From NCBI GenBank assembly GCA_949152475.1, contig OX424569.1, positions 27,511,950-27,575,949 on the forward strand: a stretch of 64,000 bases of DNA, in the 5' to 3' direction. Of this stretch, positions 5,245 through 62,280 are shown in pieces. The first letter of the stretch is position 1. Each line of letters opens with the position of its first letter. The translations under genes and the position numbers were made by a program. Source of the stretch: Terebella lapidaria. Lineage: Eukaryota > Annelida > Polychaeta > Terebellida > Terebellidae. The notes under the pieces are model-generated. The model was not told where the DNA came from. It was given only the letters and a program-made list of their open reading frames with translations, and did not search any database.

Positions 5245-5478
5245 AAACCATACAGAAAACTACTCAGCCGTGACCGGCAGGTGTTTAACCAACATACAGC
5301 ATTGATTAAACACCTGAGAGAACAATGCAAGTATGGTTTAATCCTGTGGAAACTTTGAAACACTAAATACTAGTGATGTATGTTTAAGGGTTTGATCCTG
5401 GGTGTGCGGGCATTGCTGTCAGACACACGACCGAGGGCAGTCTGATGCAATGCCTGAGGCCGCAGGCCGAAGGCATTG
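5243..5478. repeat. Cluster of nested short palindromes next to the satellite array
   Basis: TTAAACCATAC (5243) pairs with GTATGGTTTAA (5331); inside it CAGGTGTTTAACCAA (5278) pairs with TTGATTAAACACCTG (5302). Further right, GCATTGCTGTCAGAC pairs with AGTCTGATGCAATGC, and AATGCCT with AGGCATT around the core GAGGCCGCAGGCCGA. These look like ends or fragments of foldback elements into which, or beside which, the 362-bp satellite expanded. Confidence 0.6.
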
Positions 5479-7385
5479 CATACCACTGAGTCGGTGTCAC
5501 TGCTGGCGGACGTTAAATCTGTCCCCGAGGATACCATCAACTCAGTAGCCTTCTGGCTTGTGATTAGGTACTTAGGCTATGTACTTGTCATATATCTATT
5601 CCATGGGGTTTGTTTCAGATTTCTAAATTATTTTCATAGGTTGTTGGGCAGTTGTATACTAATTCCATCATGTGTACAGTAGAAACAACTACATTTAACA
5701 CACTGTCTGCCCCTGATGACGCCAGTGTGTCTTTGGATAAACTATTTGGTCGGGCTTTGTTTCTATTGCAAAATGTTGTATATTGCGTTTGTTATTGGCA
5801 TCATCAAAATCTGACTATTGGTGGTAATAGATTGATTCTTACATTCATACCACTGAGTCGGTGTCACTGCTGGCGGACGTTAAATCTGTCCCCGAGGATA
5901 CCATCAACTCAGTAGCCTTCTGGCTTGTGATTAGGTACTTATGTACTTGTCATATATCTATTCCATGGGGTTTGTTTCAGATTTCTAAATTATTTTCATA
6001 GGTTGTTGGGCAGTTGTATACTAATTCCATCATGTGTACAGTAGAAACAACTACATTTAACACACTGTCTGCCCCTGATGACGCCAGTGTGTCTTTGGAT
6101 AAACTATTTGGTCGGGCTTTGTTTCTATTGCAAAATGTTGTATATTGCGTTTGTTATTGGCATCATCAAAATCTGACTATTGGTGGTAATAGATTGATTC
6201 TTACATTCATACCACTGAGTCGGTGTCACTGCTGGCGGACGTTAAATCTGTCCCCGAGTATACCATCAACTCAGTAGCCTTCTGGCTTGTGATTAGGTAC
6301 TTATGTACTTGTCATATATCTATTCCATGGGGTTTGTTTCAGATTTCTAAATTATTTTCATAGGTTGTTGGGCAGTTGTATACTAATTCCATCATGTGTA
6401 CAGTAGAAACAACTACATTTAACACACTGTCTGCCCCTGATGACGCCAGTGTGTCTTTGGATAAACTATTTGGTCGGGCTTTGTTTCTATTGCAAAATGT
6501 TGTATATTGCGTTTGTTATTGGCATCATCAAAATCTGACTATTGGTGGTAATAGATTGATTCTTACATTCATACCACTGAGTCGGTGTCATTGCTGGCGG
6601 ACGTTAAATCTGTCCCCGAGGATACCATCAACTCAGTAGCCTTCTGGCTTGTGATTAGGTACTTATGTACTTGTCATATATCTATTCCATGGGGTTTGTT
6701 TCAGATTTCTAAATTATTTTCATAGGTTGTTGGGCAGTTGTATACTAATTCCATCATGTGTACAGTAGAAACAACTACATTTAACACACTGTCTGCCCCT
6801 GATGACGCCAATGTGTCTTTGGATAAACTATTTGGTCGGGCTTTGTTTCTGTTGCAAAATGTTGTATATTGCGTTTGTTATTGGCATCATCAAAATCTGA
6901 CTATTGGTGGTAATAGATTGATTCTTACATTCATACCACTGAGTCGGTGTCACTGCTGGCGGACGTTAAATCTGTCCCCGAGGATACCATCAACTCAGTA
7001 GCCTTCTGGTATGAATGTCTTACATTCATACCACTGAGTCGGTGTCACTGCTGGCGGACGTTAAATCTGTCCCCGAGGATACCATCAACTCAGTAGCCTT
7101 CTGGCTTGTGATTAGGTACTTATGTACTTGTCATATATCTATTCCATGGGGTTTGTTTCAGATTTCTAAATTATTTTCATAGGTTGTTGGGCAGTTGTAT
7201 ACTAATTCCATCATGTGTACAGTAGAAACAACTACATTTAACACACTGTCTGCCCCTGATGACGCCAGTGTGTCTTTGGATAAACTATTTGGTCGGGCTT
7301 TGTTTCTATTGCAAAATGTTGTATATTGCGTTTGTTATTGGCATCATCAAAATCTGACTATTGGTGGTAATAGATTGATTCTTAC
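5479..7385. repeat. Satellite array 1, 362-bp unit, about five copies
   Basis: The unit begins ATACCACTGAGTCGGTGTCA and ends with TAGATTGATTCTTAC. Copies start at about 5479, 5846, 6208, 6570, 6932 and 7028. The spacing is 362 bp except for the first copy (a 5-bp insertion) and the last junction near 7010-7030, where roughly 95 bp of the unit is repeated. Copies differ by only a few bases, so the array is recently homogenised. An 87-residue open frame recurs in each copy but has no start context, no domain and breaks off with the unit, so I do not call it a gene. The array ends abruptly at the foldback element at 7386. Confidence 0.9.
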
Positions 7386-11905: not shown

Positions 11906-14900
11906 GCTAAGTAAGTAAGTAAGTAATTTATTTCTTCAATGGCATATACATCAATAATAATAATAATAATAGTAATAATAATAATGGCAAAGAAATAATA
12001 CATGAAAGTCATAAATACAGTAACATAAAGAAAGTAATTTCAACAAATATAAAGCCACTGAACGGATAAACACACAGAGCCAAAAGGCTGTACACCTAAA
12101 CATAAGTAAAAAAAATAACATGCCAAACACATTTACCAAACACATTTACTTAGGCGAGTGTGTAACCCAAACAATATATACAAAGACAATAAACCAATAA
12201 TCGAGAACCACACAAGCACGCACACCTACACACTCCCACACGCACCTACGCGCACACACAACACGCGCTAAAAAATAAGAGAACTTTTAACAAAGCGCAT
12301 GCATGAAATACTAAAACGAAGCAGAACATAACAAAAATTAATTAAGAAAGGAAAACAGGAAAGGAGGAAAAACGCATAACTTTACAGTAAACTTACATTT
12401 AATTAACCAAGGACGCACTCACACAAACACTCAGACCCACACAACATAAAAACAAGCATATGACACGTAACAGAGAACACACACATAGGACATGGAACAA
12501 AACTCTGGTACATGACATACAAACGACGCACAGACAAGACGCAAAGAAAAGGAAACACATAGACCTACTATAAACGAAGGATACACACATGCACGCATAT
12601 ACATACACACACGCACCTACACGCACACAATAAGGACACCTACGCAAACACATTGAAAACAACACACACACACTACACTTCACTACACTACTGACAGAGC
12701 TAAACGATTCTCAACGATCCAAAAGCTGGACAAAACGTTAACAAGAAGGGGGATGTTTAGATACAAGAGGGTAAGCTAGGTTAATACGGCCTAGAAGAGA
12801 CAGTTTATGGATAAATTAATTAACATGAGGCGTAAGATTCAATGAGCATGACCTTGATCTTGTTCGAGAAGGACTTAGGATTATTTACAACGCGAATAAA
12901 ATGTGGTAACGACGACCATATAGAAGGACCTTTGTGAATCAGGCATTTTGAAACGATGTTGATACGATGTGGCCGGTGATGTATTGTTTGGCGCGTATTA
13001 TAGTCATGTACCTCGGTAGTTGGAGTGAACATATGGAGTAGTCTGGATGGCAGCGTGTGTTGGTGGTATGCATGCATCAACTTAGCTACCTCCAGTGTAT
13101 AAATATCAGACAGTTTAAGCATTTTGAACATTTTAAAAAGAGGCTCAGAGTGAGCATTGGAATTCGTGCGCCCAACAATTCGTACAGCCTTGCGTTGTAA
13201 AACTTCCGTCTTTTTCAGATACTTCTGGGCCGCAGTGCCCCAACAGGATATACCATATAGAATATGGGACTGCACTAGAGAGAAATATAATGTCTTCAAA
13301 ATTTTTTGTGGCATTATATTTTTCACTGACATGAGGGCATACAACGCACTGGACAGCTTGGAATTCACATGGTCAATATGGTTAACCCAACTAATTTTCT
13401 CGTCAAGGTAGACTCCCAAGAACTTGATGACCGATTTGCGTTGAATCATAACGTTATTGATATTAATACTAAGATTGTCGGGTACAGTCACCTTAGAATT
13501 ATGCGGTATGAATAATAATGTGTTTTTGACGCATTGAGGGACAGCTTGTTTGCCATGAACCAATAGCTTAAATTGGATAAATCAGTGTTTAGGCAAGCAA
13601 AAATTTCGTCTACATCGGTAGAAGACGAAAATATAGTCGTGTCGTCCGCAAACAATATCACATTCGAGCTCTTAACTGCTTGTGGTATGTCATTCATATA
13701 AATGATGAAAAGCAAGGGCCCTAATATGGACCCTTGCGGCACCCCACAAGTGATGTTTTGTATATCAGAATTAGTGTCGTTATATGAGACAAATTGTTTG
13801 CGATCTTGGAGGTAACTGCGAAACCAGAGTAAAGGCAATCCGCGGATACCATAATGGTGCAATTTGTGTAGAATGATTTCATGATCGATGGTATCAAATG
13901 CTTTAGAGAGGTCAAGGAAGACACTAGCTGTGTCCTCCCCGACCTCAATAGCATTCAAACACCTACAGACAAATTCATTCACAGCATGGATTGTAGATCG
14001 TTTCTGGCGAAAACCATACTGTCCCTCAAATAGAATGCGTTGCGATTCTAAGTAAGTATAAACGCGTTTGAAGATAATTTTTTCCAATACTTTGGACAGT
14101 GTTGGCAAGAGCGATATTGGTCTATAATTTGTAAGGAGGTCGACCGCCTTTGATTTATGCAAGGGTATAACTTTCGCTAATTTTAGATTTTGAGGCACAA
14201 CCCCTGAAGCCATAGAGTCATTTATAGCCAAACACAGCGGAAAGGATATCCCCGAACGTATCTGTTTCAACAGGGAAGGAGAAATCCCATCGAAACCACA
14301 GCTAGTTTTCGGTTTCATTTTCAGTATGAAGTTAGAAACTTCAACCGGATCAGTCGGTGATAAAAACATGGAGCGTTCATAGGTTCCAGCCAGGTAGGAA
14401 TGGAACGGGGTGGTCGGTGATGGTATAGACGCTGCTAGATTGGCCCCCACATTTGTGAAAAACTTGCAGAATTCATTGCTTATATGTTGTCCATCTGTTA
14501 CAGTACCTCCATTAATTTTGAATGCTCTGTTTACAGATGTGTTGTTGTTTTTGCCGAGACACTGCTTGATTGTACTCCAAGTTTTCTTAACATCACCTTT
14601 AAATTTATCGATGAGTTGTCCGTAGTGGAGACATTGATATCGCACATTCATCTAGTTTGCGTGACGTGACGGTGACGTGGCCGCGCTGTTTTGTGCGCTT
14701 TTTACCAACACACAGCAGGACCGGCATATGATCCGATATGTCGTTTAATAACAAGGCAGATGTAGTATCCCGCATTGAAGGAATTTTAATATATATATTG
14801 TCTATTAGGGTGGCAGAAGAACTAGTAATTCTGGTCGGCCTAGTGACTGTGGGTACTAGACACGCCGAGTAAAAAACGTTCAGCAGTTCAGCACCAGCAC

Positions 14901-27803: not shown

Positions 27804-29725
27804 TTAACATGAAAATAGATCTAGTTGCATGGCAGACATGGATTTGCTGTATTTGTCAACCAGATCATGATGACGTCCATAGAATTTCTTAAACGCAGCT
27901 ATAAGTTTTGATAAAGCATATCCTTGTCGCAGCAGTTTAGAGACTAGCTGGGCACTTCGATAGACAAAGTCCTCATATTTGCAACTAGCTCTGGAATAGC
28001 GTATAAGTTGAGAAACAAACACACCATATGCCGGTGACATAGGAATGTTGCTGCTTAGAAAAGGGAAATTGACTATGGAAAAATTGAAATCATCACGTTT
28101 GTCATATAATCTAGTTGACAGGTTAGAATCATTACCAATCTCCAACCTCAGGTCTAGATAGTTGGAAAAATTAGCGGAGTCTGTAGTATCCTTAATTTCA
28201 AGTTCCTTAGGATATATGACATCCAAATAATCACCAAATTTGGGATTATTTAGCGACAATACATCATCTATGTATCGGAAAGTGATATCAAAATTACATA
28301 TTAGTTACTTAGAACCTCCTCGTTGTAAATGTTGGATAAAATCTGATTCATATGAGTATAAAAACAGGTCTGCCAATAATGGTGCACAGTTTGTGCCCAT
28401 GGGAATACCAATAGTTTGTTGAAATGTTCGACCACCAAATACAAAAATATTATCAATCAGAAAATTAACCATATTTACCACATCTATTTCAGTATATTTG
28501 TATGGGGCATCAGAGTCGCCTTTAACAAAATAAGCGGTATTATATTTTACTACAATATAGTGGTACCGACGTTGGCCCTTTTTAGAGAAAAATGAATTAT
28601 TGATTAATTTTTTAAGCTGAGACTTCAGTTCAGAATGAGGTATAGTTGTGTACAAAGTAGAGAAATCAAATGTTGTGATAGACGTTACTTTTGAAAGTGT
28701 GTGAGCATGTAGATATTCCAATAAAGATTTGGAATTTTTAAATATCCACATTTGGTTTATACCACTTCTAGAATAGATGGTTTCAGAGTACTTTTGGAGA
28801 CCCTGTTTAATTTTAGACAATATAACAGTTAATATTTTAGAAAGGGCTTTGGTAGAACATGATGCTGAACCTGAAATATATCTTTGTTTGTGTGGATTTT
28901 TGTGCACTTTGGGATCCAATATAAGTTTGGTAGATTAGAATCTTTACATGAGGTAGTAATACCAAACGAATGCAATACAGACAAATGATTTGATAAGATA
29001 TCCTGTTTGGGCACGGTAATGGCTTGGTATGTACTATTGGAATTAGTATTGTTGGCAATACCCAGTTCGTCAAACAGGCACTGTACATGTATGTAGTATG
29101 CTTTACAAACAAAAACAACATTATTAGAAGCTTTATCTGCAGGGACAATGATGAACCTTTCTTGAAGTTCCAACAAACTATTAGTAACCACGGGATCATT
29201 GAAGACAGAGCTATATTTAGTACTAACTGACTTTGACAAAGCATTAATGCGTTTGTTTACCAATGACCTAATCTGTTTGACCCATTCTGACAGAGAATCA
29301 GTTTCTGCCTTTTCTCGCTTTGTCCATTTTCTGGCATGCTCCTCAACTGCATCCATGATTAACTTAAAATTGTATCTCCATGAAAACGACGTGGGCTCTC
29401 TATATTTGGGACCTTTGGACAAAATGTCTTTCAATGATTCATTCTCCACTATATTGAGGTCGCCTGAAATAACATGCCCAACTGGATCGTGTATGAACGG
29501 AGAGTTAATGCAAGTGCAGGAGGGTGGGTTATGTAAGAGATCATCATTATCCAAATCATTCAATGTTTGTTTGTAGTTGAATATTTTGGAAGCAACAGAT
29601 TTGGTATATGAGTAGGATATAGATGGAGCGGCCGTGTCAGTGAAGTATGATGGTACCTGGGACTGAACAGACTTATGATGTAATATATTACTGATTACTG
29701 ATACGGGTCCTCGAGCAATTCTCAA
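27804..29725 (-). mobile_element. Penelope-like retroelement fossil (reverse transcriptase)
   Basis: Seen on the - strand, in order: an N-terminal region with FIIVPADKASNNVVFVC (the position of the D-K-G motif of Penelope-like elements); YWIPK and NPHKQRYISGSASCSTK; FDFSTLYTTIPH (RT motif A); IGIPMGTNCAPLLADLF (motif B); YIDD (motif C, about 28262); and SPAYGVFVSQLIRYSRASC with a C-terminal helical region. No endonuclease domain was recognised in the covered sequence. The element is broken, with about two or three breaks. The assignment to Penelope-like elements rests on the DKA/DKG box and the LYTTIPH / ADLF motifs; a more distant RT class is possible. About 1.9 kb is covered and neither terminus was located. 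Confidence 0.65.
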
Positions 29726-30934
29726 CTAGAAGGGAGATGTTTGAACAGCTCATTCTGGCCAGTAACCTTTCCTTACTAGTCTAATGCCATTGTGAAAGTA
29801 AATGTGATCGGACTAGAGTAAAATTGATATGCTCTCAAAACGAGCCTCGGTGTGGGGGGAAGGGGGGGGGGGGGGGGGGGGGGGGTTGGGGGGGGGGTTA
29901 TGGTCCTTTCACATATCACTGCCTATGTACATTGGATCATTCAAAATTAATACAATATCTTTTCGACGATACAGTAAGTACAAATGTCACGCGATCACGA
30001 CTGGAAAGTTTCATGCCGCTGAAAGTTAATAACAATACAATCAGAAATTGTAGACCACCTCCAAAGGTTTAGTCTCTTTTTACAAGCTGACAATATTTTC
30101 AATGTGTGAGACTAACTAAAAATACTAGAATATTAACGTACTGCTTGCTGTATACATCATGATCGGTAAAACAATCTCAATTACAGTTATAATTTTCTTT
30201 CAATATCACAAAATTTAAATTGGTTATTTCAAATGATGTTTCTCAATTTGTCTGTTTAGAGCTCAATGTCAAAGGCTCCCTTTTACTTAAAGCAAACCCC
30301 GTCACTGAATGTTTCAAGTTTCATAGATTGTACATCTATACTTGTACACCGTACTTTAATAAAAATATGTTAAATTTTGAGTGAATTGGCAAATCAGAAG
30401 CAGCAGTCCGGCTAGATTCAGACGGATGATAAACACTTGCTAAAATCAATTGAATGTTCAACGGAACCTACATGTATCTGTATTTTTTGTATTTTTTTCT
30501 GTATTTTTTTTTAACTTTGCTCGAAAATCAACTTGAATGTGTGGGGCAACAACTCTATATCCTAACACTAAAAACCTGTTGGCTGAAATACCATCCTGTT
30601 CTCAATGTTTGCAAGGATGTGTTTTCCAGGTGGGATAATGTAAATAGAGAATATTATCAAATAATAATAATATATTATAAAATGCATTCATCTTGTATCA
30701 TCTCGCTATACTAATATTTGTGCATTTTGTTTATCAAACAGATAACAACACCGATACACACTTTAATTATAAACATCTATGTTTTACTAGGTCGTCAAAA
30801 TATTGAAAAATCTTGAAAATTTTTTAATTTCAGTGTCTCTCACACTCACTGAGGAAATGAATTGTCCTTAAGTTGTCTACCTTATTTCGAAGCATGCAGT
30901 AATTGACACACCTGTGACTGATTTTTTTGTCGGG
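29726..30934. other. Noncoding; contains a long G-rich tract
   Basis: Apart from the G-rich tract at 29851-29898, there is nothing but AT-rich DNA. No exon or RNA gene was recognised. Confidence 0.5.
29851..29898. repeat. Extended poly-G tract
   Basis: More than forty bases of almost uninterrupted G, broken only by AA and TT. Such a tract can form G-quadruplexes and is also prone to assembly and sequencing error, so its exact length should not be trusted. Confidence 0.9.
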
Positions 30935-31123
30935 CAGTTGTATACTAATTCCATCAGGTGTACAGTAGAAACAACAACATTAACCACACTGTCTGCCCCT
31001 GATGTGTGTCTTTTGATAGTATTCGGTAGGGCTTTGTTTCTATTGCAAAATGTTGTGTTTTACGTTTGTTATTGGAACCCTCAAAATTAGGCTGTATTGG
31101 TGGTAATAGATTGATACTTACAT
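30935..31123 (+). repeat. Single dispersed copy of the satellite core
   Basis: CGGGCAGTTGTATACTAATT through CCATCAGGTGTACAGTAGAA and GGTGGTAATAGATTGATACT matches the core half of the 362-bp unit with scattered changes and a short deletion. The linker half (ATACCACTGAGTCGG...) is absent on both sides, so the core can exist and move without the linker. Confidence 0.8.
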
Positions 31124-31149
31124 TCTACAAGCGCTTCCAAACCGCCAGG

Positions 31150-32492: not shown

Positions 32493-35400
32493 ACGACACT
32501 ACGTTTATGATGTCATGATGCCAGAGATCATGGTGACATACACACCGACTCCAACGAAATATAATTTTTTAAGCGCGACTAAGAATTTTTTATTCCCGAT
32601 TTTTATCAGTGAATAGTGCATGATTACGGTGAATCTTATAGGACATTGCCTTTTTATTTATTTTTTTCAAAAAAAAGTTCGTAATATTTGTAGGGCATAT
32701 TTAATTTTATACGCGTATTTAATATTTTATATGCGTATTTAATTTTATACACATATTTAATATTTTATATGCATAATTGATCATTCATGACGCATATTTG
32801 ATATCTTATATGCATATTCAATATTTTATATGCATATTTAATCATGTATTACGCATATTTTAGCATTTTTAAGGATATTTATTATTTTTACGCATATTTA
32901 ATCCTTTAATTCACATTTTTAATATTGTATACGCGTATTTTATATTTTATACGCGTATATAATCATTTATTATGCAATATTTTATATGCATAATCTATCA
33001 TTTATTATGCATATTTAATATTTGTTTATGCATATTTAATTTTAAATACGCATTTTTTATTTATTTTTTTATTATTATTTTCAATAATAATTATTTTTAA
33101 TAATATTACATTATTAAGTACGCATACACAATATTAAATATGCGTAATAAATCAATGAATACGCATATGAAATATTAAATACGCATATAAAATATTAAAT
33201 ACACGTAATAAATGATTAAATACGCGTATTCAATATTAAGTATGCATAAAAATATTAAATATGTTTAATAAATCAATAAATATGCATAAATACGTGTATG
33301 TAATATTAAACATGCAAAAAAAAATACTAAATATGCATAATAAATCAATAAATACGCATATAAAATATTAAATACCCATTTATACGGTGGCTGATATATG
33401 CCATAGTTTTATTTTTCAGATTTCATTTATTTATTTTTTCCAAATGACCACTCTAAAGAAAAGAAAATAATTAAATTCACGTACTTAATGTTAAATACGC
33501 GTAATTAATATTAAATACACATACTTAATATTAAATACACGTATATAATATTAAATACGCGTATATAATATTAAATACGTGTACTTAATATTAAATACAC
33601 GTACTTAATGTTAAATACGCGTACTTAATGTTAATTACGCGTACTTAATATTAAATTAGCAAAAATTGGATGTGGTTATGTTGCTGTGTATGTCTCGTGA
33701 AACAAGGTATGTATCAAGCGACATGGCGCATAAAGGAAAATAAAATATCTAACTGTCTGGTATTTAATATTAAGTACGTGTATTTAACATTAAATACACG
33801 TATTTAATATTATATACGCGTATTTAATATTATGTACGTGTATTTAATATTAAGTACGCATATTTAATATTAAGTACACGTATTTAACATTAAGTATGCG
33901 TATTTAATATTAAATACACGTATTTAAGATTATATACACGTATTTAATATTATGTACGCGTATTTAATATTAAGTACGCGTATGTAATATTAAGTACGCG
34001 TATTTAACATTAAGTACGCGTATTTAACAATAAATACACGTATTTAACATTATATACACGTATTTAATATTATGTACGCGTATTTAATATTAATTACGTG
34101 TATTTATCATTAAATACGCGTATTGAATATTAAGTACGCGTATTTAAACATTAAGTACGTGTATTTAATATTAAGTACGTGTATTACATGCGTCTGAAAA
34201 ATATCGTAAATAAATGAAAACTAAAGAATAAAACTATGGCATATATCAGCCACTGTACATTTAAAATATTAAATATACATAATAAATGATTAAATACGCT
34301 TATTTAATATAAAGTATGCATAAAAAATATTAAATATGTATAATAAAGCATTAAATACGCATACAATATATTAAATATGCATATAAAATATTAAATACAC
34401 ATAATAAATCATTAAATACACGTATTTATTATTAAATGTGCATAAAAATATTGAATATGCGTAATGAATCACTGAATACGCATATAAAATATTAAATACA
34501 CGTAATAAGTGATTGAATACGCATATTTAATATTAGGTATGCATAAAAAATGATTAAATGAGCATATAAAATATTAAATATGCGTAATAAATGATTAAAT
34601 ATGCATATAAAATATTAAATACGCATATAAAATATTAAATACACGTAATAAATGATTAAATATGCATAAAAAATATTAAATACGCATATAAAATATTAAA
34701 TACACGTAATAAATGATTAAATATGCGTAAAAAATATTAAATATGCATATGAAATATTAAATACAGGTAAAAAATGGATGAATATGCATATGAAATATTA
34801 AATATGCATAAAAAATCTTTAAATACGCGTAACAAATAATTAAATACGCATATAAAATGGTTAAATACGTGCCACAAATATTTCTAACTTTTTTTTAAAA
34901 AATAAAAGAGCAATGTCCTGAAAGAGCCACCGTACATGATTGTATTGTCTCGAGCAAGTATTTATTTGGAAATGAATACCAATAAATACCTGTCGCAGGT
35001 ATCAAATGAAAATAAATCATTACTGGTGGAAATGTAAACATACTGGAAATTGTATTTTTATTGCCAAGCATATACATGTACACTGTGCATGTACAATGTA
35101 TTATGGTTATATTACTCGATGTACATAAACTGGTCGTGGATAGCTAATCGTTGCAATAATGGTGTGCGAGTTTGATCCATTGGTAATGAACAGTTTTGTG
35201 GTTGATATTTTGATATTTGGTTCATGAAATTCTCTGAAATCCAGTGAATCTATTCGTGAGAAATACTCAGCCTAGGGCATTATCCTATACATAAATGCGA
35301 ATGAAAAGTTGTGTCATTTGGAGTCGGTGTTATGTCACCATGATCTCTGACATCATGACATCATAAACGTGATGTATATTTTATACGCATATTTAATCAT

Positions 35401-35910
35401 ATTTTACTCGTATCTAATATTCTATATGCATATTTAATCATTTATTATGCGTGTTTAATATGTTATGGTTATTAAACATATTTATTTGTGTTGGATTTCT
35501 CAAATAGCCAAAGGCTAATCCAGTGAGATTTCCAACGATGTGTATTTTTTGATGTGTATTTAATATTTTAAAATAATATTTTCAATAATGAATGATTTAA
35601 TACGCATACAAAATATTAAATAATAATAAATGATTGAGAATGCAGATACAATATTCAATACGCATACAAATGATTAAATATGCGAATAAAATAATGAATA
35701 CTGAAATAAAATGAAAGATATTGAATACACGTAATAAATGATTGAATATGCATATAAAATATCGAATATGCGTGATAAATGATCTAATGAGCATATTAAA
35801 TAATGAATACGCGTATAAAATGAATAAATACGCGCATAAAATAATTAAATACAAATTATTCATATTTTTGAAATCAAAAAGCAATGTCCTATGCGAGCCA
35901 CGATATAAAA
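32493..35910. repeat. Large foldback structure built of 20-bp ACGCGT-containing units
   Basis: An AT-rich region of arrays whose unit is close to TATTTAATATTAAGTACGCG. Between 33779 and about 34190 the period is exactly 20 bp for some twenty units; 33480-33660 has the same period with GTACTTAATATTAAATACGC. Outer parts (32690-33060, 33100-33380, 34260-34880, 35370-35470, 35590-35850) carry looser forms with ACGCATATAAAATATTAAAT. Three inverted pairs share a centre: 33385-33447 with 34198-34258 (GTGGCTGATATATGCCATAG), 32639-32700 with 34845-34925 (AGGACATTGC), and 32493-32552 with 35324-35386 (TTTATGATGTCATGATG). A further AGGACATTGCT box stands at 35880. No reading frames are meaningful. Confidence 0.85.
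33661..33760. other. Unique spacer at the dyad of the foldback
   Basis: About 100 bp without the 20-bp unit (TTGGATGTGGTTATGTTGCT to ATATCTAACTGTCTGGTA) separates the two central arrays and lies near the common centre of the inverted pairs. It is the only non-repetitive sequence in the middle of the structure. No motif was recognised. Confidence 0.6.
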
Positions 35911-37444: not shown

Positions 37445-38436
37445 TATGAGATTTTATCAGTTTATGTGGTAAATACTTTCGGATTTCTAAAATATTTTCA
37501 TAGGTTGTTGGGCAGTTGTATACTAATTCCATCAGGTGTACAGTAGAAACAACTACATTTAACACACTGTCTGCCCCTGATGACGCCAGTGTGTCTTTGG
37601 ATAAACTATTTGGTCGGGCTTTGTTTCTATTGCAAAATGTTGTATTTTACTTTGTTATTGGCATAATCAAAATCTACTATATTTGTGGTAATAGACTGAT
37701 ACTTACATTCATACCACTGAGTCGGTGTCACTGCTGGCGGACGTTAAATCTGTCCCCGAGGATACCATCAACTCAGTAGCCTTCTGGCTATTGATTAGGT
37801 ACTTATGTACTTGTCATATATCTGTTCCATGGGGTTTGTTTCGGATTTCTAAAATATTTTCATAGGTTGTTGGGCAGTTGTATACTAATTTCATCAGGTG
37901 TACAGTAGAAACAACTACATTTAACACACTGTCTGCCCCTGATGACGCCAGTGTGTCTTTGGATAAACTATTTGGTCGGGCTTTGTTTCTATTGCAAAAT
38001 GTTGTATTTTACTTTGTTATTGGCATAATCAAAATCTACTATATTTGTGGTAATAGACTGATACTTACATTCATACCACTGAGTCGGTGTCACTGCTGGC
38101 GGACGTTAAATCTGTCCCCGAGGATACCATCAACTCAGTAGCCTTCTGGCTATTGATTAGGTACTTATGTACTTGTCATATATCTGTTCCATGGGGTTTG
38201 TTTCGGATTTCTAAAATATTTTCATAGGTTGTTGGGCAGTTGTATACTAATTCCATCAGGTGTACAGTAGAAACAACTACATTTAACACACTGTCTGCCC
38301 CTGATGACGCCAGTGTGTCTTCGGATAAACTATTTGGTCGGGCTTTGTTTCTATTGCAAAATGTTGTATTTTACTTTGTTATTGGCATAATCAAAATCTA
38401 CTATATTTGTGGTAATAGACTGATACTTACACTCAC
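37445..38436. repeat. Satellite array 2, 362-bp unit, about 2.7 copies
   Basis: The cores begin GTTGTTGGGCAGTTGTATAC at 37504, 37866 and 38228, exactly 362 bp apart. These units differ from array 1 consistently (for example TTTTACTTTGTTATTGGCAT and GGTAATAGACTGATACTTAC against the array 1 forms) but hardly at all from one another, which is concerted evolution within each array. The array ends at CTGATACTTAC. Confidence 0.9.
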
Positions 38437-45811: not shown

Positions 45812-47239
45812 TTATTCCCACCCATATCGTGCTGGCGCACGTGGTTTCCGGCGTGGCCGCCCGTCATCCGCAGGTACTGGAGGGAGTGGGGGTACCTGCG
45901 GATCGCCGTCATCTGGCTGATAGCCACCCAGTCCATCATCTAACGGGTCAGAGAGGTCCTTCGGAACCCGAGATTCCAAATGGTCCGGCAGGGTGAACGG
46001 GTCATCTCCGGCGGCCGCCGCCGCGCACGCAGCGCGGCAGACTGGATCGTCGGGGAGGACACGACTCGAAGACGCGGGAATAGCAGTAGCTGCTATGCAT
46101 CCGCGCTTCAGTACAATCGGAGCATCCGTAGGATTCACCACAAGGATGGGCATCACATGGGGGTTGGACATGACCAGGGCCCCACCCAGCACGAGTCCGG
46201 TTCCTTCGGCGAAACTGCTCACGGGTTGCACTATACACGGTCGACCATCGAGGGGCATGCGGGGACGATGCGGCCTCGCCTCAATGATCATCTCACTCAT
46301 TGGCGGCACTACTACAGTGCGTGACACCCGCATTTGGAATGAATGCATCGGGCCCGAGCGGAAGAGAAAGTGTGTGTCCTCTCCCATCCGGAATTCGCCA
46401 GCACTAAAGTTGGCGGTCACCCGGTGGACCCGTAGAAAAGTCATCTCAATAATCCCGGCCGCTCCGATATCCGCAACGATTGCCTCTGTCGGATACACCT
46501 TGTCCCCAAGGGTAATAGGCAGATCGATGATGCCATGGATACGGATGCAGTTGTCTCCCGCTCCGTAGAGCTTGTACGGTCCGGGATCCCGCAACTCAAG
46601 GTTGCGGAGCGCGGGCTCCTTCTTAAACGTTCCTGCAGCAACGAGGGTCACCTCTGAGCCAGAGTCCATGAGGAACCGGACCGGCTCCCGTCCGAAGGAC
46701 AGGGGCAGGTACCAGCAGGGGTCCCTCACCAGCGCGCAGGTAGGGCGATACCGTTCGCACGCGCTGGGCTCATCTACGGAGTCCTCGCCATCCGCCTCAG
46801 CCACGGAGGAGCTAGACTGATCTCCAAGGACTACTTCCGGAGAAGTCATATCAACTTGGGGTTCGTCCTGCTCATCAGCGGGTGGGGCGGCATCTTTTGC
46901 CACGGAACAACTATCCCCGGACGTAGTGTTGGCCGCCACCACGTCCGGATCTAGTTTCCCTGCCGCGGGTTCCGACCCTGCTGTCCCGGAGGACCAGACC
47001 GGAAGGAATTCCTCCGTTGCGGGCCAGGGAGGGCTCCCTGGTATCCGCGCGACCGCAGGCGTTCCAACAACTCCGGACACTTCAGCCAAAAGTGTCCCTG
47101 CTTTCCGCAGAAGTAACAGGGACGGTTCTGAGCTGGTCCGGAGGTGAACGCGCAACATTCTGCGGGTCCCGGAGCTTCGATCCCGGCGCAGTGCGCAATC
47201 ATCTGCGCGGCGCCGAAATCGTATTCCTCCATGTCGCAC
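45812..47239 (-). CDS. Gypsy protease-containing frame (fossil element)
   Basis: An open frame of 475 codons in a different phase from gag, overlapping its end by about 290 bp, as in families that reach pol by frameshifting. An aspartic protease core is visible (VRFLMDSGSEVTLVAAGTF, then a second conserved strand region with I-I-E-M-T-F-L). The C-terminal part is Pro/Asp-rich and ends with a basic R-P-R-R-K-P-R-A-P-A-R tail, a composition more usual at the end of an integrase. The protease would process Gag in virus-like particles in the cytoplasm. Confidence 0.75.
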   Translation of the reverse strand: MRHGGIRFRRRADDCALRRDRSSGTRRMLRVHLRTSSEPSLLLLRKAGTLLAEVSGVVGTPAVARIPGSPPWPATEEFLPVWSSGTAGSEPAAGKLDPDVVAANTTSGDSCSVAKDAAPPADEQDEPQVDMTSPEVVLGDQSSSSVAEADGEDSVDEPSACERYRPTCALVRDPCWYLPLSFGREPVRFLMDSGSEVTLVAAGTFKKEPALRNLELRDPGPYKLYGAGDNCIRIHGIIDLPITLGDKVYPTEAIVADIGAAGIIEMTFLRVHRVTANFSAGEFRMGEDTHFLFRSGPMHSFQMRVSRTVVVPPMSEMIIEARPHRPRMPLDGRPCIVQPVSSFAEGTGLVLGGALVMSNPHVMPILVVNPTDAPIVLKRGCIAATAIPASSSRVLPDDPVCRAACAAAAAGDDPFTLPDHLESRVPKDLSDPLDDGLGGYQPDDGDPQVPPLPPVPADDGRPRRKPRAPARYGWE

Positions 47240-49101
47240 TCATCCGAGGACGAGCTCGGCGCGGCGACTGGTGCCGCATGTGCGGGCGTCCCTGTGGAGG
47301 GTGCCGACGCACTAACCCACTGCGGGGTATGTTCCCTGGCGGGTTCCCGGACGACCGGGTCCTGCCACGGGGTTACCTGCGATGCTTTGACCGGAGGAGG
47401 AGTCGCCGCCTGCGCGGGTACAGCCGGGGCCGGAGGCAACGGTCTAGGGCGGACAGCTACCTCGAGCGCAAGCGCGGAGTCTATTGCCTCCTCCATCGAT
47501 CGTTTTTCATGGGTGGCCAGCCCGCATGCTAAGTGGTAAGGCTGGCCATCGATGAACTGATCGATCAGCATCGTTTCAAACCGTCTAGAGTCCATGTCCG
47601 GAAAAGCTCTCCGGCCGAGTATGCGCAGGTTAAACGCATAGTCTGTCACGGACTCAGTCGGTTGGCGGGTACACGCCTTGAACTCTCGTTCAGACTGCCG
47701 CCAATTGGTTGTCGGCGTGAACAGCAGGCGAAGTTGACGGGCAACCTCGCCGAAAGTCACTGTTCCCACCAGCAGACACGGCATCACGCAGAGAGCTTTT
47801 CCTTCTAAGCTACCCGCGAGGACATGTCCAGCTTCATGCTGGGACCATCCTTCGTACACGGCGGTACGCCACACCTGGAGTAAGTAGTCCTCCAAGTCGG
47901 CGTTATCCCCGTTGAACCGTTTCCGCCACGAAGAGTGGTCGGACCCGTCATCGCGTTTGTTACGCGCCCGACGTGCGGTCCTGGCTCCGGGGTCGTCCCT
48001 GTACAGCGGCAAGTTCCGCGAGCTACCCGCGCCTGCGGCGGAGTCTGCCGGAGCAAACATCGACGCCGCGGACATAGGAGCAGGAAAGCTCACGTTTGCC
48101 GCCGGGGTCATTCCCGCTAAAAACCCACTCTGGCTTGGGGCTTGGGGCCGAAGCCGCCTGTTGCCACTGCCCGTCCGACACACTGTACGCGCCAGGGTAA
48201 GTCGACCACGCGGCTTGCGCTCCAACCGTCGGAACGGTCGACGCGGTCGCCAACGCGGTGCCTCCGAGCCGCGGAGCAGGCGCGGGTCCCATTGCGGTGC
48301 CACTGGCGCCTGCGGACTCAGCAGGACTTGGGGAGGGGCTATAGGCCCAGTCATCCCCGGACTTAGTATGGCCGACGGATCGACGCTCGGAGGCGGCTGA
48401 TTCCGCTTGAACTGTACAAGCGCCTCGGATATCAGCCACCTCTCCCTCTCCGTCAAAGGCCCCGAGTTGCCTTGTGACAGCGGAGAGGGGGAACAGTTCC
48501 GCCGGTCTGATCGTCCCTGGTGGGGCGACCGGACGCGGTCATAGCGCCCTAGAGGAGCCAGCTCACTCAGAGTGTTGGTGAGCTGGTCCATTCCGCCTGA
48601 CGCGGACCGCCTGGAATCCCCGCCGGGAGCCCTCGCAGGAGCTCCTCCGACTGGAGGTGGCATCCAGTACCGCTGGTCCGCTTGCCCGGAGGTATTCGCG
48701 CCGGCGTCCACTAGATTCCGGACATCCGGAGATGTCCCCTGGAAGAGCGTCGCCTGCCACGACTGCCGCCCGGACTTAGGCGGGCGCGGGGTAGCGCCGT
48801 TGCCAGCTCCACCTACCGTGCCTAACGGATCAGGGCTAGGCCCTGATCGCAACCTCTGTTGCGGCCCCTCGAGGCGCGACTCTTCGTCCGGAGACGGAGT
48901 CAGTGACGCCGGAGTCGACTCTGTAGACGGGATTTTGTCCACGGAGGTCTCCGCACGTTCCTTCCTACCGCCGGAGTCATCCGAAGAATTCTCACGGCGG
49001 CCGTCGCTCGACCGGGTGTGGTCCGCGACGTTTCCACCCGTTTCCCCCCCCCCCTTGGGTTCATTAGCCTTATCTTTTGCTTTATCTCTTTCTTTCGTCA
49101 T
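46951..49101 (-). CDS. Gypsy Gag-like protein (fossil element)
   Basis: An open frame of 716 codons, the first long frame after the 5' LTR and leader. The N-terminal half is low-complexity, rich in Gly, Pro, Ser and Arg. The capsid-like retrotransposon Gag region follows the HSSWRKRFNG segment (WRTAVYEGWSQHEAGHVLAG, then FKACTRQPTESVTDYAFNLR). A CCHC zinc knuckle, CYFCGKQGHFWLKC, stands near the C-terminus. Gag would form the particle and package element RNA. The knuckle and capsid region make the assignment firm; the frame looks whole. Confidence 0.85.
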   Translation of the reverse strand: MTKERDKAKDKANEPKGGGETGGNVADHTRSSDGRRENSSDDSGGRKERAETSVDKIPSTESTPASLTPSPDEESRLEGPQQRLRSGPSPDPLGTVGGAGNGATPRPPKSGRQSWQATLFQGTSPDVRNLVDAGANTSGQADQRYWMPPPVGGAPARAPGGDSRRSASGGMDQLTNTLSELAPLGRYDRVRSPHQGRSDRRNCSPSPLSQGNSGPLTERERWLISEALVQFKRNQPPPSVDPSAILSPGMTGPIAPPQVLLSPQAPVAPQWDPRLLRGSEAPRWRPRRPFRRLERKPRGRLTLARTVCRTGSGNRRLRPQAPSQSGFLAGMTPAANVSFPAPMSAASMFAPADSAAGAGSSRNLPLYRDDPGARTARRARNKRDDGSDHSSWRKRFNGDNADLEDYLLQVWRTAVYEGWSQHEAGHVLAGSLEGKALCVMPCLLVGTVTFGEVARQLRLLFTPTTNWRQSEREFKACTRQPTESVTDYAFNLRILGRRAFPDMDSRRFETMLIDQFIDGQPYHLACGLATHEKRSMEEAIDSALALEVAVRPRPLPPAPAVPAQAATPPPVKASQVTPWQDPVVREPAREHTPQWVSASAPSTGTPAHAAPVAAPSSSSDECDMEEYDFGAAQMIAHCAGIEAPGPAECCAFTSGPAQNRPCYFCGKQGHFWLKCPELLERLRSRGYQGALPGPQRRNSFRSGPPGQQGRNPRQGN

Positions 49102-61398: not shown

Positions 61399-62280
61399 TC
61401 AGAAGACGCGGCGGTGTCGGCCGGCCGGGGTAGTAGTGCGGATTTCCGGTGCCAGATCCTGTACTGCATAAGAGGAACAACCTTGGACGATGCTGCTCAA
61501 CTTCTTACGCTTTTTCTCGCCCGTGCGCTTGTAGTCTCTGACAGCCAGTGAACGATGTCCCGTCACCTCTGTAATGAGCTGTTCGTCTACTTCTGCATCG
61601 TACAGGCGGGTTGCGGCTGACGACCGGAGCGAGTGGTTGGTGCGATATCCACCAAGCCCAGCAGCTGAACACAGGCCCCGTACAACCGTCGATAGCTTAT
61701 GACGACCAATGGGCGATCTGCTGTACCACACGACTGATGTTGGGTTATCCAGAGGTCGGAGATAGAATGCAGGGAGTGACTCCAATGGGCTAGGACAGTG
61801 CAAAATATAGTGCTTGTAAATGTTGATTGGGCAGCGTTCGTGGTTGTCTACATTGGGAAATGCGTCGACGGTCTTGTTCTTCTTGTGGACGTCCTTGAGG
61901 CCTCCTTGGTTGCATTTAGAGTGATCCTCGGTGTAGCGAAGAACTTCTGTGCCAGAGGGAAGCACAATACATCTTATCTGAGCTGCTGGTCCGAACAGTA
62001 AGGCGCGGTGTTCTTCCCCTCCTCGTAAAGCGAAGTATAGACCAATCGTGTACATTAGTGTGTGCACCAACTTTCGAGGCGTGTCGGTACCGAGGACGCC
62101 GCTAGTCCACATCAAATCTTCTTCCGCTACAGTGATGACGTCAGCCTGACGTCGGGGCTGATTGACACCTTGTTTGGCACGGATCTTCATTTGGTTGTCA
62201 ACAGTATTTCGGATTTGTTTAAAGCGGTCGTCGACGAAGAATTTGTAGGACTTGCCGTTTGCCTCCAGGTGTAGCTGCAA
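61399..62280 (-). CDS. Crypton-type tyrosine recombinase (DUF3504-like) open frame
   Basis: A DNA strand-transfer enzyme of the Crypton transposons, related to domains captured in animal KCTD1, QRICH1 and ZMYM proteins. The 293-codon open frame on the - strand contains, in order, FKQIRNTVDNQMKIRAKQG; EEDLMWTSGVLG; YFALRGGEEHRALL (first catalytic Arg); HERCPINIYKHYILHC; YSRSPIGRHKLSTVVRGLC; NHSLRSSAATRLYDAEVDEQ (H-x-x-R); EVTGHRSLAVRDYKRT (His and catalytic Tyr). All catalytic positions are kept and there is no stop, so it looks intact over this domain. The frame remains open upstream to about 62340 without a clear ATG, so the N-terminus or a first exon is missing or further right. It could be a recently active element or a domesticated gene. 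Confidence 0.8.
   Translation of the reverse strand: MQLHLEANGKSYKFFVDDRFKQIRNTVDNQMKIRAKQGVNQPRRQADVITVAEEDLMWTSGVLGTDTPRKLVHTLMYTIGLYFALRGGEEHRALLFGPAAQIRCIVLPSGTEVLRYTEDHSKCNQGGLKDVHKKNKTVDAFPNVDNHERCPINIYKHYILHCPSPLESLPAFYLRPLDNPTSVVWYSRSPIGRHKLSTVVRGLCSAAGLGGYRTNHSLRSSAATRLYDAEVDEQLITEVTGHRSLAVRDYKRTGEKKRKKLSSIVQGCSSYAVQDLAPEIRTTTPAGRHRRVF

Follow-up and report, generated by a model that had tools for sequence, protein, structure and literature searches.

Foldback elements such as TU of sea urchins and FB of Drosophila have inverted arms made of short tandem units. According to the sections of the cited accounts that were available to us, here and below, the transposon Galileo belongs to the P-element superfamily, and the THAP domain of its transposase binds sites in the tandem repeats of its long, Foldback-resembling TIRs (PMC3688188). 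IS3EU elements have TA..TA termini and usually 6-bp target-site duplications (PMC10045372); in the TET-bearing IS3EU elements of fungi the TIRs are >30 bp long and end TAYGG..CCRTA, and a gene for an alpha-kinase lies opposite the transposase (PMC12730594). Dispersed satellite-like arrays that are carried by mobile elements are described for the non-autonomous Helentrons of the oyster (PMC7492417).

We analysed a locus of the polychaete Terebella lapidaria. The window (i.e. the whole stretch of DNA analysed, 64,000 nucleotides) spans C16:27511950-27575949; the assembly has 438 contigs and a total of 761.6 Mb. Our explanation of the locus, which we consider likely as a whole, array function included, is that it holds two non-autonomous DNA transposons of IS3EU type, one (E1) nested in the other (E2), together with the debris of a third copy (E4). 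As in Galileo, the arms are long, inverted and internally repetitive, but here the unit is a 20-bp palindrome, strictly phased in E1, whose binding by transposase is putative, and the transposase is not of the P-element superfamily. The arrays are dispersed with their mobile carriers as in the oyster, although the carriers are TIR elements with 6-bp duplications rather than Helentrons. As in the fungal elements, a cargo gene lies opposite the transposase, a HECT-ligase gene here; this gene and the inverted subterminal 20-bp arrays go unmentioned in the available sections of the IS3EU accounts. A literature search likewise brought neither to our notice in IS3EU elements, within a comparison made from those sections.

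Two nested elements with separate target-site duplications

A sequence-only reading had described 32493-35910 as a single foldback of 20-bp units in which three inverted pairs share one centre. The AT-rich arrays of 20-bp units with inverted arms are there, so the structure is real, but it was misread. The centres differ (33820 for E1, 33779.5 for E2 and 33935.5 for a 54-bp inverted pair), and in place of one co-centred structure there are two nested insertions, each with its own 6-bp target duplication. The features are, in order:

32501..32554, + strand: 54-bp inverted duplication, left copy, outside E1 and E2
32619..32624, no strand: E2 target-site duplication, left, CATGAT
32625..34934, + strand: E2, older non-autonomous element classed as IS3EU-type, ends TACGGTGAATCTTATAGGACATTGC / GCAATGTCCTGAAAGAGCCACCGTA, 2310 bp with E1 and one of its duplications counted in
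32695..33057, - strand: E2 left array, units of 20 or 21 bp, higher-order period of 61 bp (TRF)
33112..33379, + strand: E2 right array before the E1 insertion, approximate limits
33377..33382, no strand: E1 target-site duplication, left, CATTTA
33383..34257, + strand: E1, younger non-autonomous element classed as IS3EU-type, 875 bp, ends TACGGTGGCTGATATATGCC / GGCATATATCAGCCACTGTA, CATTTA on both sides, with dispersed copies
33470..33649, + strand: E1 left array, nine 20-bp units (ATTAAATACGCGTACTTAAT)
33650..33768, + strand: E1 spacer at the dyad, recurring with E1 at other loci
33769..34189, - strand: E1 right array, opposite in orientation to the left one, with 21 20-bp units and a higher-order period of 120 bp
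34258..34263, no strand: E1 target-site duplication, right, CATTTA
34264..34869, + strand: E2 right array after the E1 insertion, approximate limits
34935..34940, no strand: E2 target-site duplication, right, CATGAT
35318..35370, - strand: 54-bp inverted duplication, right copy, 96% identical
~35376..35905, + strand: E4, E2-like third element, partial or truncated, with its right end (GCAATGTCCTATGCGAGCCACGATA) at 35905

The E1 arms (33471-33656 and 33842-34027, 186 nt) are 91% complementary. Judged by the array limits, the E2 arms meet at ~33058-33112, ~735 bp from the E1 centre. This places E1 within the right arm of E2 and makes the nearly common centre a coincidence brought about by the nesting. 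Because the unit ATTAAATACGCGTATTTAAT reads the same on both strands, inverted pairs turn up at many centres (866 were reported by the inverted-pair search). The outermost pair, the 54-bp inverted duplication, is no transposon end of the E1 or E2 families, and no left end was recognised for E4.

The strict 20-bp period holds for E1, in which 27 of 28 intervals are 20 bp and one is 21, but not for E2, in which 20 and 21 bp are mixed. The spacer at the dyad and the AGGACATTGC boxes are real. The sequence-only reading had proposed a test for target duplications outside 32493 and 35910; these boundaries were wrong, the true ones being 32625/34934 and 33383/34257.

Dispersed copies of E1 and E2

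The 23-bp E1 end has 509 exact places in the genome (255 + 254), against none for the reversed control, and a genome-wide search for the unit, proposed with the sequence-only reading, found the palindromic pattern TTAARTACGCGTAYTTAA at 1230 sites against two for its control; with such counts the repeats are not due to chance. A probe from 33383-33470 gave 40 scored places from 637 candidates, ten of them at 100% over the full probe length. Twelve E1 copies of 870-880 bp are 91-99.9% identical, and the spacer offset is 268 bp in most of the young copies compared (271 in one). Copies begin TAC(G/A)GTGGCTGATATATGCC, with the inverse at the other end, and 6-bp duplications are usual; one end in most copies reads TACAG, one base off TAYGG.

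Exact 6-bp duplications flank 34 of 42 two-ended elements with the E1 TIR and are absent from eight (38 of 42 when one mismatch is allowed), compared with 6 of 1722 in a cross-pairing control; the count leaves out L004, L050, L051 and L054, and two of its members, L008 and L012, share flanks. At least nine E1-type units are present in 40 of the 42. Lengths are 14 or 15 modulo 20 in 21 of the 42, a clustering from which copies seem to gain or lose whole units; the same-flank copies L008 (835 bp) and L012 (874 bp) are 39 bp apart in length. L054 has two direct end copies with the same flank and, by eye, a reverse-transcriptase-like ORF.

The E2 ends define a second family, TACGGTGGCTCTTTTAGGACATTGC, with 95 places at no more than one mismatch and none for the control. 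Among those of 20 fetched loci that were judged by eye, 6-bp duplications are present at seven (L032, L033, L036, L039, L041, L042 and L044) and absent at L031 and L037.

A full-length relative with an intact transposase ORF

A 10.3-kb element at C1:52942706-52953024 (L050/L051) has E1-type ends, the target-site duplication CTATGG and an intact ORF of 421 aa with an integrase core (PF24764, rva_4, E 1.5e-35). The same ORF matches the NCBIfam IS481 transposase weakly and far below the cut-off (E 2.7e-4). Residues D141, D200 and E242 were picked out by eye as those of a DDE transposase; no P-element match was found in the protein, nor any THAP match at E<=1. There are five copies of the ORF, 99-100% identical, with 102 more diverged matches among those listed; the near-identity of the five suggests that the full-length family was recently active.

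The opposite strand holds a frame of 223 aa that matches the HECT domain (E 2.8e-7). Frames near it resemble further exons by eye, the Pfam HECT match being confined to the one frame. The DNA of the HECT region has five genome places, one of them partial, each adjoining a transposase copy, and the right-hand DNA of the full-length element adjoins all five transposase copies. The C1 copy has a left array of 12.4 units and, in inverted orientation, a right array of 20.5; the left array lies between the TIR and the ORF in five of five copies, and the right array was read in the C1 copy alone. At L081 (C2:34329130-34330900), one full-length copy has received an E1-type element, with the target-site duplication GCATAA, in the stretch that separates its left array from the ORF for the transposase.

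E1 has no transposase gene and retains the arrays. Its left end and the ends of the full-length element have 89-93% identity; its right end is 97% identical over 92 bp to L049 and 92% over 51 bp to the five-copy element; and part of its spacer is 84% identical over 38 bp to the stretch from left array to ORF of L050 and 92% over 52 bp to L049. The shared ends suggest that E1 uses the transposase of the five-copy element; its right end, nearer to the sibling subfamily of L049, makes that element a putative rather than a certain helper. L049 itself (a TIR pair, 7.5 kb, target-site duplication ACAACG) had no recognised transposase-like ORF of at least 80 aa, and the one of its nine ORFs taken to Pfam gave no match.

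Although the repeats had been thought to fit no nameable class, the termini and duplications of E1, E2 and the full-length element, and the kind of transposase of the last, match IS3EU. Of the features that mark IS3EU/GingerRoot elements, we find the TA..TA termini (TACGG..CCRTA here, with TACGGTG at the ends of E1 and E2), the 6-bp target duplications and a DDE transposase related to IS3/IS481. The TA-CAGTGGC ends had suggested Tc1/mariner, which was dropped when the flanks proved to carry 6-bp rather than TA duplications. Membership of Foldback/Galileo (P superfamily) is contradicted by the transposase, which is of rva_4 kind and gave no THAP match at E<=1.

Probable CpG decay in the unit cores

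The sequence-only reading had taken the CpG of ACGCGT to be preserved, perhaps by protection. All 30 cores of E1, and 61 of 70 in E2 and E4, are CGCG or derivatives of it by CpG decay (C-to-T or G-to-A), but intact CGCG is left in just 12 and 7 of them, respectively, and decay products dominate. This looks like ordinary CpG decay that has gone further in the older element, without protection; the mutation pattern is what would be expected if the core CpGs decay by the methylation route, leaving fewer intact cores in E2.

Among the 12 E1 copies of 870-880 bp, private CpG-type changes number 9 at outer core positions and 4 at inner ones, whereas the fixed unit variants number 1 and 17, respectively (Fisher 0.0003). 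The contrast could reflect constraint on TAC..GTA; we give it no weight because the 120-bp higher-order-repeat units are not independent. In E2 the outer/inner pattern is the opposite of that in E1.

Arrays of other 20-bp units

The other two of the 42 two-ended elements, L063 and L075, have the same E1 TIR with another palindromic 20-bp unit, TTTTGAACGCGTTCAAAA, in the following arrays:

L063 923-1703: alternative array, unit TTTTGAACGCGTTCAAAA
L075 1376-1709: alternative array, unit TTTTGAACGCGTTCAAAA

L063 has an exact 6-bp duplication. Identity at lag 20 is 0.61 in L063 and 0.53 in L075, with maxima of 0.53 and 0.48 among 200 shuffles. Since the same end is found with different unit flanks in E1 and L063, there is no simple link between the transposase and the sequence of the unit. 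In a set of 20 loci, 24 of 33 ends have at least three E1 units inside 350 bp; the other nine ends include two of L063 and two of L075 with the alternative array, and a 21-bp array in L068. L062, also among the nine, and L054 have only marginal period-20 arrays, and the solo E1-TIR ends L058, L067 and L070, which make up the rest of the nine, have no period-20 array in 800 bp.

From the 102 diverged transposase matches we also took a sample of 12, with 37-57% identity, and examined 1.2 kb upstream of each. Period-20 arrays lie upstream of five, in three lineages, above all 100 shuffles (best-lag identity 0.63-0.95; shuffle maxima 0.47-0.52). L084 and L087 have a period of 61 = 20+20+21 and the TIR-like sequence TACGGTGGCTTAGATCTGCC, and share with E2 only TACGGTGGCT; in L085 a 20-bp unit with a CC(C/G)GG core is repeated to 41 copies; and L088 and L093, which are near-duplicates, have ~8 degenerate 20-bp units. 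Within the 1.2 kb upstream, no period-20 array was found for the remaining seven (L082, L083, L086 and L089-L092), among which L089 has a TIR-like sequence, TACGGTGGCTGTTATCTGCC, but no array, and the period in L092 is 32 bp. An ACGCGT-type core is common to E1, E2, L063 and the arrays of the 55-57% identical transposases; the core differs at 46% transposase identity, where it is CC(C/G)GG, and at 37%. Period-20 arrays are thus recurrent and not universal. The surprising part is that, within one genome, 20-bp phasing keeps returning in different elements and transposase lineages while the unit itself changes.

Possible insertions of the family into its own arrays

E1/E2-type array sequence adjoins 11 of 105 distinct end flanks, compared with 4 of 2000 random window positions, where some of the flanks belong to the same element or cluster, L061 and L074 are weak one-end matches and the control is not AT-matched. 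Within E1, the site GGTATT at the junction of spacer and array has received a further E1-type insertion at three exact loci and one mismatched one:

C1:22446561, insertion at GGTATT
C1:93673141, insertion at GGTATT
C12:38909937, insertion at GGTATT
C3:30927996, insertion at GGTATT

The C12 insertion is probably independent, because the other end form (TACAG) is on that side. These observations are suggestive of insertion of the family into its own arrays.

Other features of the window

Tandem arrays of a 362-bp satellite-like unit, ~94-96% identical between arrays, flank the locus at 5474-7385 and 37477-38435, with a diverged fragment (85-86%) at 30927-31125. A dispersed repeat occupies 34932-35248 and 35249-35293, with copies mostly 76-84% identical; some other loci have the second piece immediately before the first, which would fit a circularly permuted or tandem unit of ~362 bp, and the repeat has no similarity to the 362-bp satellite. 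Reverse-transcriptase ORFs lie at 13488-14648 (-) and 28305-28916 (-) (Pfam RVT_1, E 7.4e-38 and 1.3e-7), and an ORF of DUF3504/phage-integrase-type tyrosine recombinase, possibly Crypton-like, at 61399-62277 (-) (E 3.5e-33 and 2.3e-8). A GC-rich stretch (~61%; 46951-49098 (-) and 45812-47236 (-)) has a gag-like ORF with a weak, below-cut-off Retrotrans_gag match (E 0.0063) and a neighbouring ORF in which a protease-like motif, DSGSEVTLV, was seen by eye. Rfam and tRNA searches gave no matches.

Discussion

The boundaries of E1 and E2, their 6-bp duplications and their dispersal are established, and so is the existence of a full-length element that matches and whose transposase ORF is intact. 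Given the target duplications, E1 would have moved by cut-and-paste with a 6-bp staggered cut, presumably mobilised in trans by the transposase of its full-length relative, and would then have inserted into the right-arm array of E2. The 20-bp units beside both ends appear to be an integral part of the transposon: they are inverted on the two sides of the C1 copy, the left array is in all five full-length copies and E1-type units are kept by nearly all two-ended elements. We infer that the units serve as subterminal sites whose phasing puts them all on the same face of the helix, each with a short palindromic, GC-bearing core in AT-rich DNA, and that dimers of the transposase (or a host protein) may bind them and aid assembly of the paired-end complex. 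Unit number could shift by unequal exchange or slippage. The suggestion of a protein-binding array in the sequence-only reading is thus the one we prefer for the repeats, at the level of an inference. Judging from sequence, the arrays are probably functional, and by analogy with Galileo they are probably phased subterminal binding sites for the transposase; their position at both ends, their inversion, their retention in gene-less derivatives and a period that is kept while the sequence changes all argue for this. A more specific proposal is that the transposase of this IS3EU lineage reads palindromic sites spaced at two helical turns (20, or 20+20+21) at both ends, so that spacing is kept while the units change, and that the arrays are also landing sites for the family's own insertions. 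The changes are exemplified by flanks TACGCGTA and GAACGCGTTC with the same ends, and by the cores ACGCGT, CC(C/G)GG and AAACNTTC across diverged lineages. We put this proposal forward tentatively, as one that is on balance unlikely to hold in full.

The same transposons might instead carry the arrays passively, as an AT-rich, satellite-like passenger that grows and shrinks by slippage or unequal exchange but plays no part in transposition. To this we give a substantial minority of our belief. The clustering of lengths by 20, the 39-bp difference between L008 and L012, the higher-order periods of 61 and 120 bp and the seven diverged transposases without an upstream array are all what it would predict, and conservation of the period under changing sequence could also be explained by concerted evolution of an ancestral array. 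It sits less easily with inverted arrays on both sides of the C1 copy, E1 and E2, with a left array in every full-length copy, or with period 20 in different units in E1-end elements and in three further transposase lineages. That the arrays bind a host protein, or act as promoter, enhancer or insulator of the transposase gene, is a good deal less probable: the left array of the full-length element is directly upstream of the transposase ORF, in promoter position, but an equivalent array is at the right end, far from that ORF, the gene-less E1 keeps its arrays, and the cores differ among transposase lineages of one genome.

Readings in which the locus is one structure fare much worse. The sequence-only reading was right that transposons with foldback-like, internally repetitive arms are present, and such arms are what a co-centred foldback transposon of the Drosophila FB/Galileo type would have; that reading is nevertheless very improbable, in view of two nested elements with different centres, separate 6-bp duplications and separate genome-wide copies, and a transposase of integrase/IS481 kind with no P-element or THAP match. 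We give the least credence, next to none, to a chromosomal element for replication or scaffold attachment, or to an assembly inversion artefact; the AT-richness of the arrays suits it without being specific to it, and it is opposed by hundreds of dispersed ends on many large contigs, with distinct target duplications in the sampled copies.

What had looked like a foldback of no known class can now be studied as a defined system: a family of IS3EU type with five near-identical copies of an intact transposase ORF and hundreds of end copies. The HECT ubiquitin-ligase-like gene is a type of cargo that we did not meet in the available sections of accounts of the IS3EU superfamily. The 20-bp-phased arrays with their different units form a natural series that makes the idea of a multimeric transposase-binding platform, a question raised for Galileo, testable.
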